Of a DNA stretch of 45,431 nt, positions 3,676 to 37,829 are shown piece by piece (the stretch's first letter is position 1; every line of letters begins with the position of its first letter). A program made the translations under genes and the position numbers. This DNA comes from Oscillospiraceae bacterium (GTDB lineage: Bacteria > Bacillota > Clostridia > Oscillospirales > Oscillospiraceae), in NCBI GenBank assembly GCA_017469115.1, contig JAFUGY010000105.1:1-45431 (forward strand), in the 5' to 3' direction. The notes beneath the pieces were generated by a model. That model was not told where the DNA came from, searched no databases, and saw only the letters and a program-made list of their open reading frames with translations.

Positions 3676-6318
3676 TCAGTTGAGTTTGGAAGAGACGAAA
3701 GCTTCCAGAGCAGCAAGGGATTCATCCAGCTTGGAGAGGTCGGTGCCGCCGCCCATTGCGGAATCCGGTTTGCCGCCGCCTTTTCCGTTTGTAATGGCAG
3801 TGACGTGACGAATCACATCTCCGGCCTTGATCCCTGCCGAAACAGCATCAGCGCCGCATACACAGAGGTAAGAAATTTTTTCGCCGTTTACCGAGGCAAG
3901 AAGCGCAACAACGTCAGAGTCTTTATCACGCAAAACATCACCGAGGCTCCGGAGGGCTGCCGCATCGTTATCGGCAAGCTTGACGGTTGTGACATGGAGG
4001 GAACCGACGGTCTTTGCCTTATCCAGATACAGCTGTGCATTGCCGGATGACTCTTTTGCCTTGAACTGCTCGATCTGACGCTTCAGCTCACGGATTTCGG
4101 AAGCCTGCGCGTTGAGGCGTTCCGGCAGATCGGCAGGAGCTGCTTTAAACATGGCAGAAACCGTTGAGAGCAGTTCGGTATTCTCCTGCAGGAGAGCAAC
4201 CGTCTTTTTCCCGGTGAGGGCTTCCACTCTTCTGACGCCGGAAGCGACAGAAGCTTCGGACACGATGTGGAACGCTCCGACCTGAGCGGTGTTTGCAAGG
4301 TGCGTACCGCCGCAGAGCTCGGCACTGAATCCGCCCATTTTCACAACGCACACGGTGCTGCCGTACTTTTCGCCAAAGAGAGCCGTAGCGCCGGACTTTT
4401 TGGCATCTTCCAGAGACATGACATCCGTCGTCACATCTACACCGGAGAGAATATAGCCGTTGACAAGGTCTTCAATTTTGCGAAGATCTTCTTTGGAAAC
4501 AGCCGACATGTTCGTAAAGTCGAACCGGAGGGAATCCTCCTGTACGAGAGAACCAGCCTGATGGACATGATCGCCCAGAACGGCACGAAGAGCGCTCTGC
4601 AGCATATGAGTGGCACTGTGAGCACGGGCAATCGCGGCACGGCGCTGTTTATCGTAAGCGGAAACCACCGGATCACCGAGCTTGAGCGTACCGCCGAAGA
4701 GGTGCCCGTAATGCATGTATTTGCCGCCTTTATTGCGGATGACATTCGTCACGGTAAAGACAGCGTCCCCGCAGGTGATAAAGCCATGGTCGGCTTCCTG
4801 ACCGCCCATCTCAGCATAGAGCACTGTTTTGTCAAGAACGAGGATTCCGTCATCTCCGTCATACAGGTCGGATGCCTGTTCGCCTTCCGAGACAATGGCG
4901 AGGATTTTGCCCGCAGCCTGATCTGCTTCGTATCCGACAAACTGCGTGTCGGGGATCTCTTTGCCGAACTCAATACCGGCCCAGCCGAGGTCACCGAGGG
5001 CTTTGCGCGCTTCACGGGCACGGACGCGCTGTTCTTCCATCAGAGTATGGAAGCCGGCTTCATCCACCGTCATTCCCTCATCGGCACACATTTCAATGGT
5101 GAGATCGAGTGGGAAGCCAAACGTATCATACAGTTTGAACGCATCGGCACCGGAGAAAACAGACTCGTTTTTCTTTTTATGATCTTCCAGAAGGTCTTTG
5201 AAGATCGCCATACCGGCGTCAATCGTCCGGTTGAAGTTCTCCTCTTCGTGACGGATGACGGAGATGATATAATTCTCTTTCTCACGAAGTTCCGGATACT
5301 GGCATTCGTTTTCATGAACAACGGTATCCACGATTTTCCACAGGAACGCTTCATTGACGTTCAGGAGCTTTCCGTGGCGGGCAGCGCGCCGCATCAGACG
5401 ACGAAGCACATAGCCTCTCCCCTCGTTGGAAGGCAGAATGCCGTCACTGATCATGAAGACGGAAGAGCGGATATGGTCGGTAATCACGCGGAGGGAGACA
5501 TCGGTTTTATGATCCTTGCCGTAATAAGCGCCGGTGAGCTCGCTGACGCGGTTGGTAATATTCATCACCGTGTCTACATCAAAGAGAGAATTGACATTCT
5601 GGCAGACGCAGGCAAGACGCTCAAGGCCCATACCGGTATCGATATTCTTCTGCTTGAGCTCGGTATAGTTGTTATGCCCGTCGTTATCGAACTGAGAGAA
5701 CACGTTATTCCAGACTTCAATATAGCGGTCACAATCACAGCCTACCGTGCAGGTCGGTTTTCCGCAGCCAAATTCTTCTCCGCGATCATAATAGATCTCA
5801 GAGCAGGGGCCGCAGGGGCCTGCGCCATGCTCCCAGAAGTTATCCTCTTTTCCGAACCGGAAAATACGCTCGGGAGCGATGCCGATCTCTTTCTCCCAGA
5901 TTTCAAAGGCTTCGTCATCATCCTTGTATACAGAGGGATAAAGCCGGTCGGGTTCAAGACCAACCCATTCGGGAGAGGTAAGGAACTCCCAGCTCCAGGC
6001 AATGGCTTCATGCTTGAAGTAATCGCCGAAGGAGAAGTTACCGAGCATTTCAAAATAGGTGCCGTGACGAGCCGTCTTGCCGACATTTTCAATATCGCCG
6101 GTACGGATGCACTTCTGGCAAGTGCAGATCCGGTGACGGGGAGGCTCTTCTTCCCCGCGGAAATACGGCTTCATCGGCGTCATGCCGGCATTGATCAGCA
6201 GGACACTGGCGTCGTTCTGCGGAACGAGAGAAAAGCTGGGGAGGCGGAGATGCCCTTTGGTTTCAAAAAAGCTCAAAAACATCTCGCGCAGTTCATTCAG
6301 ACCATGATAAGGATGCAT
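3676..6318 (-). CDS. alaS: Alanyl-tRNA synthetase
   Basis: An 880-residue enzyme that charges tRNA-Ala. The class II catalytic core begins with FFETKGHLRLPS and LINAGMTPMKPYF. It continues through RICTCQKCIRTGDIENVG and FWEHGAGPCGPCSEIYYD. The second half has the editing domain, with AHSATHMLQ (HxxxH) and CGGTH zinc ligands that remove mischarged Ser and Gly. The C-terminal DHHA1 domain ends with GKGGGKPDSAMGGG. The start at 6318 has GGAGG seven bases upstream. A longer frame reaches 6363 but lacks an RBS and adds 15 non-family residues. The U32 gene ends 46 bases upstream and the HIT gene follows, suggesting one operon. Everything needed for activity appears intact. Confidence 0.98.
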   Translation of the reverse strand: MHPYHGLNELREMFLSFFETKGHLRLPSFSLVPQNDASVLLINAGMTPMKPYFRGEEEPPRHRICTCQKCIRTGDIENVGKTARHGTYFEMLGNFSFGDYFKHEAIAWSWEFLTSPEWVGLEPDRLYPSVYKDDDEAFEIWEKEIGIAPERIFRFGKEDNFWEHGAGPCGPCSEIYYDRGEEFGCGKPTCTVGCDCDRYIEVWNNVFSQFDNDGHNNYTELKQKNIDTGMGLERLACVCQNVNSLFDVDTVMNITNRVSELTGAYYGKDHKTDVSLRVITDHIRSSVFMISDGILPSNEGRGYVLRRLMRRAARHGKLLNVNEAFLWKIVDTVVHENECQYPELREKENYIISVIRHEEENFNRTIDAGMAIFKDLLEDHKKKNESVFSGADAFKLYDTFGFPLDLTIEMCADEGMTVDEAGFHTLMEEQRVRAREARKALGDLGWAGIEFGKEIPDTQFVGYEADQAAGKILAIVSEGEQASDLYDGDDGILVLDKTVLYAEMGGQEADHGFITCGDAVFTVTNVIRNKGGKYMHYGHLFGGTLKLGDPVVSAYDKQRRAAIARAHSATHMLQSALRAVLGDHVHQAGSLVQEDSLRFDFTNMSAVSKEDLRKIEDLVNGYILSGVDVTTDVMSLEDAKKSGATALFGEKYGSTVCVVKMGGFSAELCGGTHLANTAQVGAFHIVSEASVASGVRRVEALTGKKTVALLQENTELLSTVSAMFKAAPADLPERLNAQASEIRELKRQIEQFKAKESSGNAQLYLDKAKTVGSLHVTTVKLADNDAAALRSLGDVLRDKDSDVVALLASVNGEKISYLCVCGADAVSAGIKAGDVIRHVTAITNGKGGGKPDSAMGGGTDLSKLDESLAALEAFVSSKLN

Positions 6319-36659: not shown

Positions 36660-36878
36660 AAACAAAAAATCAATCAGGCTGGAGAGAAAGCAGCTGTAGC
36701 ACATGATGAGGTATTTGGTTTCGGAATATGAATTCCAATTACGAAAAATCAGGTGCGATCAGGAAAAGCTATAGCAGTTCTCAACGAAGCAAAAAAAGAG
36801 GTTTCCTCTTCTCTGCAGCATAATTACATTCCAAAACCCAAAATAATCCGATATGTGATAGGCAAACCTTCGGAATAA
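36660..36878 (+). pseudogene. Possible decayed short reading frame
   Basis: A single frame of about 73 codons is interrupted only by TGA at 36729-36731 and ends at TAA 36876. The second half reads like protein (GKAIAVLNEAKKEVSSSLQ), but no start codon with RBS is visible and I recognise no family. This may be a gene remnant or chance. The rest of the stretch 36601-36945 holds nothing I can name. Confidence 0.2.
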
Positions 36879-36945
36879 GAGGGTTTATGCAACTATACAT
36901 TCTCAAGAAGTAGGATAGGGTTGTTTCTGAACGTCGCGGAGATCA

Positions 36946-36987
36946 CTCCCTCAGTCACTTCGTGACAGCTCCCTCAGAGAGGGAGCC
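36946..36987. repeat. REP-like double hairpin (copy 2)
   Basis: GTCAC-TTC-GTGAC (36954-36966) and GCTCCCTC-AGA-GAGGGAGC (36968-36986). Bases 36952-36987 match 3251-3286 at 33 of 36 positions, with a paired compensating change in the second stem. It lies just downstream of the peptide operon terminator. Confidence 0.8.
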
Positions 36988-37002
36988 AGGGCATAAAAAC
37001 AT

Positions 37003-37047
37003 AAAAAAATAGTACAGACAGTGAGCAAATCTGACCACTATCTGTAC
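37003..37047 (-). terminator. Strong terminator of the two-peptide operon
   Basis: Minus strand: 12-base arms (37047-37036 and 37023-37012) pair fully with one G-U wobble around a 12-base loop, then TATTTTTTTATG. It begins 13 bases after the second peptide stop. Confidence 0.92.
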
Positions 37048-37059
37048 AAAGGAATTTCA

Positions 37060-37212
37060 TTACTTTTTCTCTTTCCACGATTCCTCGTACTTCTCCTGAA
37101 TATCCGAAGGAAGTCCTACATACGGGTTGTAGACGAACGGATTGTAGTCGCCGCCGACGGCTTCTTTTACTTCATGTTCATTGAGCTCTTTTGCATTTTC
37201 GAATCTTATCAT
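37060..37212 (-). CDS. Double-glycine leader peptide 2 (putative secreted peptide precursor)
   Basis: 50 residues, easily missed for its size. The leader is 21 residues and ends GG at 20-21; L10, N11, E14 and V15 sit at -12, -11, -8 and -7, as in class II bacteriocin and ComC-type leaders. The 29-residue core starts DYNPFVYNPYVGLP, with YNPxV repeated twice, and ends in a charged helix-like tail. It has no cysteine. Nine of 21 leader residues equal those of the upstream peptide at the same positions, while the cores differ. GGGAGG lies seven bases before the ATG; the preceding gene ends 15 bases upstream. Likely fate: cleavage after GG and export by a peptidase-containing ABC transporter encoded elsewhere. 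Activity unknown. Confidence 0.8.
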   Translation of the reverse strand: MIRFENAKELNEHEVKEAVGGDYNPFVYNPYVGLPSDIQEKYEESWKEKK

Positions 37213-37227
37213 TTTGGTACCTCCCTA

Positions 37228-37479
37228 TTATCTACGATCCTGAGGGAACGGAAGCGGACGTGCAGGAGCCTGCGGTGCCATAGGGGCCTTATTTCCTCTG
37301 CGGTCCTGGGGGAACGGAAGCGGACGGTCGGCATCGGGGGTTTCTTCAGGATAATGGGTAGGCAGCTGGATCAGCCATTCTACGAAGGTATCAAAAATTG
37401 TATGGTTATCATCGTAGCCGCCGGCAATCTTTGTCAGGTCCATTTCATTGAGTGCTTTTACATTTTCAAGAATTTTCAT
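37228..37479 (-). CDS. Double-glycine leader peptide 1 with duplicated RPLPFPQDRR tail
   Basis: 83 residues from the ATG at 37479, which has AAAGGAG nine bases upstream; a longer frame to 37506 has no RBS. The leader ends LNEMDLTKIAGG: L-12, N-11, D-8, L-7, I-4, G-2, G-1, an excellent match to the double-glycine consensus. The 62-residue core has two parts. Residues 22-51 carry eight acidic and no basic residues, with an aromatic/hydrophobic patch (FDTFVEWLIQLP). Residues 52-83 carry nine prolines and net charge about +5, with RPLPFPQDRR at 52-61 and again at 74-83. No cysteine, so not a lanthipeptide. It could be a bacteriocin, signal or other RiPP precursor; the acidic part might mask the basic tail. 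No processing genes adjoin. Confidence 0.8.
   Translation of the reverse strand: MKILENVKALNEMDLTKIAGGYDDNHTIFDTFVEWLIQLPTHYPEETPDADRPLPFPQDRRGNKAPMAPQAPARPLPFPQDRR
37231..37326 (-). repeat. 30-bp direct repeat inside peptide gene 1
   Basis: Bases 37231-37260 and 37297-37326 agree at 27 of 30 positions and encode the two RPLPFPQDRR blocks exactly. All three differences are A/G changes at codon positions that leave the residues unchanged, showing an internal duplication kept at protein level. Confidence 0.95.
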
Positions 37480-37558
37480 TTTTTTAATCTCCTTTGTTTT
37501 TTTCATTTGTTTTATTCAGCCTCATGGGCTGATTTGTTTTTCTCTTGATTACGTGCAC

Positions 37559-37567
37559 AGTATAGCA
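37559..37567 (-). promoter_or_regulatory. Extended -10 promoter of the two-peptide operon
   Basis: Minus strand: TGC-TATACT, with no clear -35 box, about 80 bases before the first peptide gene. A small hairpin (CAGCC-TCATG-GGCTG, 37517-37531) lies in the leader. A perfect GCGAAGC-GTA-GCTTCGC palindrome (37596-37612) lies 29 bases upstream, where an activator or repressor could bind. Confidence 0.6.
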
Positions 37568-37655
37568 CGGGGAATATCACAGAAGTGTCACAGGAGCGAA
37601 GCGTAGCTTCGCAGGGGTCAGGGGGTAGGATGTAGTGGGTAGAGACCTCATCCGT

Positions 37656-37693
37656 CAGCCCGAATGGGCTGCCACCTTCTCCACCGGAGAAGG
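37656..37693. repeat. REP-like double hairpin upstream of the peptide operon
   Basis: CAGCCC-GAAT-GGGCTG (37656-37671) and CCTTCTCC-ACC-GGAGAAGG (37675-37693), both perfect. The layout, two hairpins a few bases apart, mirrors the copies at 3251 and 36952, though the sequence differs. It may be a second class of the same kind of element. Confidence 0.7.
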
Positions 37694-37781
37694 CTTATAA
37701 GGTTATATAAGGAAATCATTGGGAAAGAGGAAGCGGAGGCAGAATATAAAAAAAGCCATCCATATCAGGATGACCTGTTTT

Positions 37782-37829
37782 ACTTTTCAGGGGGCGGAAT
37801 AGAGAACCGTCCCCTGTTCCACTTTTCAG
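37782..37829. repeat. Hairpin flanked by 9-bp direct repeats
   Basis: ACTTTTCAG occurs at 37782-37790 and 37821-37829. Between them GGGGGCGG (37790-37797) and CCGTCCCC (37807-37814) pair with one wobble. It abuts the stop of the H1-like gene and lacks a T run. GGGGACGG-type hairpins are common as dispersed elements in gut Clostridia, so a REP-type element is likelier than a terminator. The stretch 37694-37781 holds nothing I recognise. Confidence 0.5.

Follow-up and report, generated by a model that had tools for sequence, protein, structure and literature searches.

A two-gene operon of an Oscillospiraceae bacterium as a probable member of a dispersed, co-regulated double-glycine secretome

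The window analyzed here, a 45,431-nucleotide stretch of DNA corresponding to contig C112 of an Oscillospiraceae genome (G000; 2.64 Mb in 148 contigs, 89% complete), contains a small operon of two genes, A and B, which we read as precursors of two secreted proteins belonging to a dispersed, co-regulated double-glycine (GG) secretome with one predicted switch and one exporter predicted to act in trans. Judged from sequence, we put the probability of this reading at roughly 0.7 and prefer it to that of a two-peptide bacteriocin. It builds on a leader and a promoter shared among the members, a motif found genome-wide, an enrichment of GG genes behind that motif, the presence of a C39 exporter and, in other genomes, a linkage between the regulator, the exporter and the motif.

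The transcription unit runs on the minus strand from 37592 to 37003 and comprises, in this order, an operator-promoter, gene A, a 15-bp gap, gene B and a terminator. The operator-promoter (37559..37592) consists of two 11-bp direct repeats, TGTGACACTTC (37592-37582) and TGTGATATTCC (37581-37571), and, downstream of both, the extended -10 TGCTATACT (37567-37559); the -10 is present as the initial annotation had claimed, and the repeats upstream of it push the operon feature out to 37592. The same architecture precedes other members, and a consensus scan for -35/-10 promoters listed none at this operon. Gene A (37228-37479, 83 aa) starts with an ATG adjoining the ribosome binding site (RBS) AAAGGAG (37489-37495), which is similar in the aligned members, and gene B (37060-37212, 50 aa) is preceded by AGGGAGG (37220-37226), all on the minus strand; the earlier description of genes of 83 and 50 codons, with good RBSs and 15 bases apart, was thus accurate. 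The Rho-independent terminator (37003..37047, minus strand), likewise announced there, has a stem-loop at 37012-37047 with 13 outer stem pairs, a folding energy of -19.6 kcal/mol and a z of -5.63 (as stable in 0 of 200 shuffles), followed by a U run. The 5' untranslated region (UTR) holds a hairpin, TCAGCC-CATGA-GGCTGA (37516..37532, minus strand), listed on the opposite strand as terminator-like; by eye, it recurs with a varying loop before some members with long 5' UTRs, and Rfam gave no match at E <= 1 within 36800-37800. Promoter and terminator enclose no genes other than A and B, and a third gene for immunity is absent from the operon. Its neighbors are ordinary genes and encode NusB, Asp23, two chromate-transporter proteins, phosphoglucomutase, a SPOUT methyltransferase and an EPSP-synthase-family protein, together with three further proteins, two of which match nothing in Pfam and one only below the cut-offs. 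Among these ten neighboring window proteins, Pfam searches detected no maturase, kinase or transporter of the GG-peptide kind, and no histidine kinase.

The leaders of gene A (MKILENVKALNEMDLTKIAGG, 37417..37479, minus strand) and gene B (MIRFENAKELNEHEVKEAVGG, 37150-37212, minus strand) are, as had been stated, both 21 residues long, end in GG and are identical at nine positions, and the cores behind them begin with YDDN and DYNP, respectively. The A core (62 aa, 37231..37416, minus strand) has a net charge of -3 (K+R minus D+E) and the B core (29 aa) one of -2; neither contains Cys or a GxxxG motif, and Ser/Thr residues number just four in A and two in B. No Pfam family matches either core at E <= 1, and neither gene matches the TIGR03793 or TIGR03798 leaders at E <= 1. 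A search of the A core against PDB sequences returned 13 weak matches, all to chains of fluorescent proteins (E >= 0.091), which we take as chance. At positions -12, -7 and -4, the A leader has L, L and I and the B leader L, V and A. The initial annotation had located the shared signature in the -12 and -8 region; position -12 is indeed conserved, while the conserved hydrophobic set is formed by -12, -7 and -4, and -8 is mostly acidic in 56 leaders linked to the promoter motif described below. The consensus of these leaders, which were counted at lengths of 15-30 residues, reads L(-12)-N-D-x-E-L(-7)-E-x-V(-4)-x-G-G.

A 21-residue leader profile built from ten leaders matches the A leader at E 7.9e-11 and the B leader at E 2.2e-9, both being included in the profile by construction. 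In a profile search, it finds seven copies in G000 (E 3.5e-11 to 7.3e-6), namely A, B, three on C124, one on C64 and one on C55; six of the seven are in the profile by construction, and that on C55 alone is new. These copies represent five transcription units (C112, two on C124, C64 and C55), each lying behind a motif site, that of C55 with two mismatches. The leader stands above chance, and the class II-type GG leader originally proposed is supported. A leader matrix picks up four copies in the related genome G026 (three of them on C34, the fourth on C27); in 35 other genomes (G026 not among them), the profile matched nine, only at E 0.06 to 0.8, and these matches were taken as chance.

A full-length paralogue of gene A is encoded on C124 (61% identity), and G026 has a homologue (82%). 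Against 59 other genomes, it matches G026 at E 4.8e-31, and additionally at 0.0015 on C27 of that genome; the best match outside G026 (G042, E 0.0011) is part of a 301-aa frame of another family, and the remaining ones (E 0.05 to 1) were regarded as chance. Relatives of gene A also occur in four metagenome-assembled genomes (MAGs), RUG13650 (two loci, best 82%), RUG14036, RGIG4490 and RGIG3778, whose titles name a Ruminococcaceae, Oscillospiraceae or Clostridia bacterium. The titles of RGIG4490 and RGIG3778 name roe-deer stomach samples, and the RUG bins are of rumen origin. The conservation of the leader among relatives, which the initial annotation had named as a check, is therefore supported by the G026 copies and by these MAGs. 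Between A and its 82% homologue, 43 of the 62 aligned codons are identical, 8 differ synonymously and 11 non-synonymously, which is too short an alignment for claiming selection on A. As to a phage or mobile origin of gene A, a phage collection gave no match, and 0 of 34 pattern stretches in viral contigs encode a relative; we rejected this origin. Gene B found nothing better than E 0.057 among the 59 other genomes. The partner gene of A varies between loci, where its relatives sit beside other neighbors.

Upstream regions of the members contain the direct repeats TGTGACAnTTC TGTGATA followed by the extended -10. Searching for TGTGA-N6-TGTGA-N9-TGCTATACT with up to three mismatches, and for the reversed pattern as a control, we found 23 sites in G000 and 15 in G026 against 0 and 0 control sites, and 437 against 11 over 101 genomes of the genus (G000 included; drawn from a larger group). 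Positions that the pattern leaves free between the repeats are conserved as well (C in 20, A in 18, G in 18, T in 18 and T in 17 of 22 G000 sites); this comparison omits the three-mismatch site on C100, which lies before a transporter-like gene and is among the sites resembling chance. At another site (L117 2105; G000:C44:11104), the motif is accompanied by an RBS-like stretch and by no GG or other near open reading frame (ORF), with GGGGACGC at the expected start; it is perhaps a decayed member.

To the genes behind the motif we applied a fixed rule at 98 sites of seven genomes (23/23 in G000, 15/15 in G026, 13/13 in G081, 16/16 in G117, 20/23 in G110, 7/11 in G020 and 4/7 in G009). A GG-leader gene followed 50 sites, a gene with a Sec-like N-terminus 23, another ORF 15 and none 10, compared with 36, 158, 840 and 4,966, respectively, at 6,000 random positions, which are a coarse control for promoters and come from a pool holding some family genes. 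Where an ORF lay downstream, it was a GG gene at 50 of 88 sites versus 36 of 1,034 random positions; the Sec-like class was weakly enriched (23/88 vs 158/1,034). Of the genes counted as GG, at least one is a false positive (a 357-aa Sec-like protein of G000), and several leaders that look like GG by eye escape the rule. The 25 of 98 sites classed as neither GG nor Sec-like count against the regulon reading, though several of them are GG by eye. A GG-only rule gives 56 of 98 sites, a figure without a random control.

By eye, ten GG units can be distinguished in G000: A-B, two on C124, one on C64, LysM proteins on C12 and C106, two on C131, a protein with CW_7 repeats on C145 and a PepSY protein on C55. 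Pfam recognizes LysM (3.6e-16), CW_7 (6.1e-25) and PepSY (8.3e-11) in the cores of the G000 motif genes and, below its cut-offs, SH3_3 in a G026 protein (4.7e-5) and Bacteriocin_IIc in the C64 member (0.0024), a glycine-rich protein of 101 aa. TIGR04149 matches two sister peptides on C124, also below cut-off (E 0.0057 and 0.099). Since A and B keep company with cores of the LysM, CW_7 and PepSY kind, their likely role would be at the cell surface or just outside.

Some motif genes of other genomes deserve mention in their own right. In G110, a 242-aa motif protein (L185, G110:C119:36540-37933, at 175-903) has a Nif11-type leader that ends in GG (32.6 bits, cut-off 32.3), after which there is a weak intein-like N-terminal match (E 0.0063). 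In motif proteins of 126-127 aa from G020 and G110 (L161 and L175), AVTGG is followed by KVSGG before a region that is LysM-like by eye, and the leader looks as if doubled. G081 carries five near-identical GG-leader genes (L147, L149, L151, L152 and L159), each behind a motif and with a core LysM-like by eye; two are at contig ends, so some of them may be assembly duplicates rather than a recent expansion.

Class IIb bacteriocins have cationic cores with GxxxG motifs. That A and B form such a two-peptide bacteriocin, with cores jointly hitting target membranes after export in trans, agrees with the adjacency of two GG-leader genes that share one promoter and one terminator, with the presence of a C39 exporter in G000 and with the sub-threshold Bacteriocin_IIc match of the glycine-rich C64 member. 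However, the A-B cores are acidic and lack GxxxG, no immunity gene is found within the operon, the A-B pairing is not conserved, B having no match better than E 0.057 in the 59 other genomes and A being re-partnered at other loci, and several GG proteins behind the motif have LysM, CW_7 or PepSY domains; we thus consider this explanation improbable. We think it very unlikely that the cores are ComC-like signals, secreted as pheromones for the regulator that adjoins the exporter: besides the position of that response regulator, it has in its favor the weak match of gene A to the NCBIfam ComC model, which at 12.5 bits is far under the cut-off of 50 (gene B has no match at E <= 1). Moreover, no histidine kinase was recognized by Pfam among the ten neighboring window proteins, and a set of pheromones would be large if it comprised the ten GG-leader promoters of this genome, with their different cores. 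That Pfam recognized no maturase and no GG-type kinase or transporter among the same ten proteins further weakens the idea of a bacteriocin, signal or RiPP pair inferred in the initial annotation.

Only one C39 peptidase domain was found in G000 at E <= 0.001 (G000:C106:16486-16878), on a contig different from that of the A-B operon. Its host protein (727 aa) is of the NHLM_micro_ABC1 type (TIGR03796; 937.6 bits, cut-off 853.3) and is followed by NHLM_micro_ABC2 (TIGR03797; 710.8 bits, cut-off 709.4). Before ABC1 lies a short HlyD-like subunit (L002 7870-8430; 149 or 186 aa, depending on the choice of start; 173 aa in G026), which covers only positions 1-59 of the 421 of the TIGR03794 profile (33.1 bits, cut-off 156.2). 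G026 has the same exporter set. The search for a peptidase-containing transporter elsewhere in the genome, as the initial annotation had suggested, has thus yielded a single C39 transporter that could serve A and B in trans; as G000 is 89% complete, a second C39 gene could be missing from the data. No Nif11 leader (TIGR03798) was detected in G000 at E <= 0.01, and the proteins with short leaders may therefore be the natural candidate substrates of this exporter. A further observation counts against the regulon reading: upstream of the exporter operon, there is a similar extended -10, though by eye no repeats.

NHLM exporters are known from RiPP-type precursors (PMC2887384), which could speak for A and B being RiPP precursors modified by a maturase encoded elsewhere in the genome, as could the Nif11-type precursor under the motif in G110 and the weak TIGR04149 matches of the C124 sister peptides. 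On the other hand, the cores offer no Cys and few Ser/Thr, no maturase is among the ten neighboring window proteins, and known folded domains are among the cores behind the motif; a RiPP origin hence appears quite improbable.

Beside the exporter on C106 lies a regulator of 269 aa in which a receiver domain (5.8e-11) is recognized, together with a weak match to Trans_reg_C (0.0097; 16.4 bits, below the curated cut-off of 26.2). Twelve orthologues all have the receiver domain and all match Trans_reg_C at E <= 0.1, the latter below cut-off for member 1; BTAD has no match at E <= 0.1 in the twelve. When the 12-orthologue profile was compared with PDB sequences, residues 124-196 of the regulator were placed on residues 8-83 of EmbR (E 2.5e-4), this being among the best 60 of 79 matches, most of which are to receiver domains. 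EmbR is a SARP-family protein. The repeats of the motif lie in 11-bp units at the -35 region. Operators of SARPs are described as heptamers with 4-bp spacers, that is, 11-bp units, which in all cases but PimR overlap the -35 box (PMC5930380), and this layout is the one seen at the motif. Given the missing BTAD match, we would call the regulator SARP-like in operator layout and possibly in fold, but not a classical SARP.

A close orthologue of the regulator (66% identity or more) is present in 36 of the 101 genomes, G000 included. All 36 have at least two motif sites (median 9.5, range 2-29), compared with 7 of the 65 genomes without one. TIGR03796 scores above cut-off in 36/36 and 27/65, respectively, and the 27 genomes that have the exporter without the regulator show a median of 0 motif sites, which indicates that the motif tracks the regulator more closely than it does the exporter. 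The seven exceptions are G117 (16 sites), G009 (7), G093 (6), G082 (4) and G119, G106 and G094 (2 each), among which TIGR03796 exceeds its cut-off in G093 and G106 alone; incompleteness could, but need not, account for these exceptions. In 22 of the 36 genomes, the regulator lies within 15 kb of the exporter (a 23rd case, G033, rests on a partial match below cut-off). The ten genomes that have both the regulator and a complete list of sites contain 126 motif sites, 22 of them at most 20 kb from the exporter and 25 at most 20 kb from the regulator, with 1.8 expected in each case; the two counts are not independent, as the genes are often linked, and G015 and G026 add none to the exporter count. 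On an exporter tree of 62 genomes (the 36 with the regulator and 26 of the 27 exporter-bearing ones without it, G114 being omitted), made by a quick method from a single exporter copy of each genome (the regulator-linked copy if more than one was present) and showing some long branches, the regulator undergoes about six changes, three of them forced by supported branches. Of three independent pairs on supported branches, two agree and one shows no difference, which is not significant. Because regulator and motif are phylogenetically clustered, their link is suggestive only, and so is the proposal that the regulator beside the exporter could be the switch of the motif promoters.

The repeats may instead belong to another OmpR-family regulator, responding for example to stress or nutrients. 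SARPs and OmpR share a DNA-binding architecture (PMC5930380), so that 11-bp repeats alone name neither, and the association of regulator and motif is, besides being clustered, broken by seven genomes. The co-occurrence of 36/36 versus 7/65, and the 25 of 126 sites close to the exporter-side regulator where 1.8 would be expected, argue against such a regulator. We regard it as a possibility to be kept in mind, although on the unlikely side.

Given the preferred reading of a dispersed GG secretome, we postulate that a response regulator with an OmpR/SARP-like DNA-binding domain would bind the two tandem 11-bp repeats, which would take the place of a -35 box, and that the operon would be switched on by the bound regulator. 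The 21-residue leader would then be recognized through residues near -12, -7 and -4, the C39 domain of the sole NHLM-type exporter found would cut after GG, and the cores would be exported by TIGR03796 and TIGR03797 with the short HlyD-like subunit, all encoded on another contig. Possibly, this route is common to the ten GG-leader promoters of G000, with cores ranging from glycine-rich peptides to LysM, CW_7 and PepSY proteins. Binding by the regulator, leader cleavage, export and the role of the cores are predictions from sequence.

The core of gene A contains the decapeptide RPLPFPQDRR twice, as a first copy (37297..37326, minus strand), common to cores that are otherwise different, and as a second, C-terminal copy at the end of the core (37231..37260, minus strand). 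This cassette, often followed by GNKAP, also has two copies in the C124 paralogue and is found in RUG13650, RUG14036, RGIG4490 and RGIG3778, in cores of at least three kinds. Uninterrupted copies differ from the first A copy at 0 to 4 of 30 bases, and one further copy is interrupted by 9 bases; the close similarity of the cassette DNA across genomes may be due to recent exchange. The 32 C-terminal residues of A are basic (net +5) and contain 28% Pro, and the hexamer RPLPFP is also present in bovine Bac7 (PMC7736402). Bac7 was absent from the PDB-sequence matches of the A core, and a likeness of six residues is weak evidence. It would be tempting to see in the regulon a combinatorial arsenal for surface functions or antagonism, with cores reshuffled as cassettes, the cassette as a functional module and the C-terminus of A as a bacterial counterpart of proline-rich antimicrobial peptides such as Bac7, yet we hold this to be highly improbable. 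If it were true, one leader, one switch and one exporter would carry cassette-shuffled cores.

GG leaders and C39 exporters are usually read as belonging to bacteriocins and signals, and several known systems resemble parts of what we describe. Co-regulation of GG peptides at one locus is already known from plantaricin (pln) of Lactobacillus plantarum C11, where several GG-leader operons, a dedicated exporter (PlnGH) and regulators acting on tandem promoter repeats are described (PMC2714321); that system is a single locus of five operons encoding bacteriocins and immunity genes, whereas here the promoters are spread over many contigs, some cores are wall-binding and the candidate regulator is OmpR/SARP-like. 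GG proteins have also been implicated in biofilm: the small EbfG1-4 proteins of Synechococcus elongatus require a C39 peptidase for efficient secretion, but their four genes lie on one polycistronic transcript, whose regulation the paper calls unknown (PMC4997328). NHLM exporters with distant precursors are known as well, as the NHLP/Nif11 systems share the exporter family (TIGR03794/03796/03797) with G000, their precursors can be far from the export genes, and the region before GG resembles class II leaders (PMC2887384); unlike those, the leaders described here have 15-30 residues, A and B match neither family, and the HlyD-like subunit is short. In the Lah cluster of Lachnospiraceae C6A11, one tolerant C39 protease, LahT, lies beside nine precursors with diverse cores and reads the last 13 leader residues, and the 56-leader consensus is a short motif of such a kind; Lah is a single cluster with Nif11-type leaders (PMC6363468). 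Among the open-licence papers listed in full-text searches, judged by titles and the beginnings of abstracts and with subscription journals largely uncovered, none described a dispersed GG secretome with wall-binding domains and a SARP-like operator.

With the motif, the secretome can be listed directly, down to tiny genes that annotation may overlook, and motif and regulator together form a testable regulator-operator pair. Genome miners who take each GG pair as a bacteriocin would misread such loci. Given that similar short leaders occur on many dispersed small proteins behind one motif, several of them carrying wall-binding domains, the GG route may be a general secretion pathway in this gut lineage.
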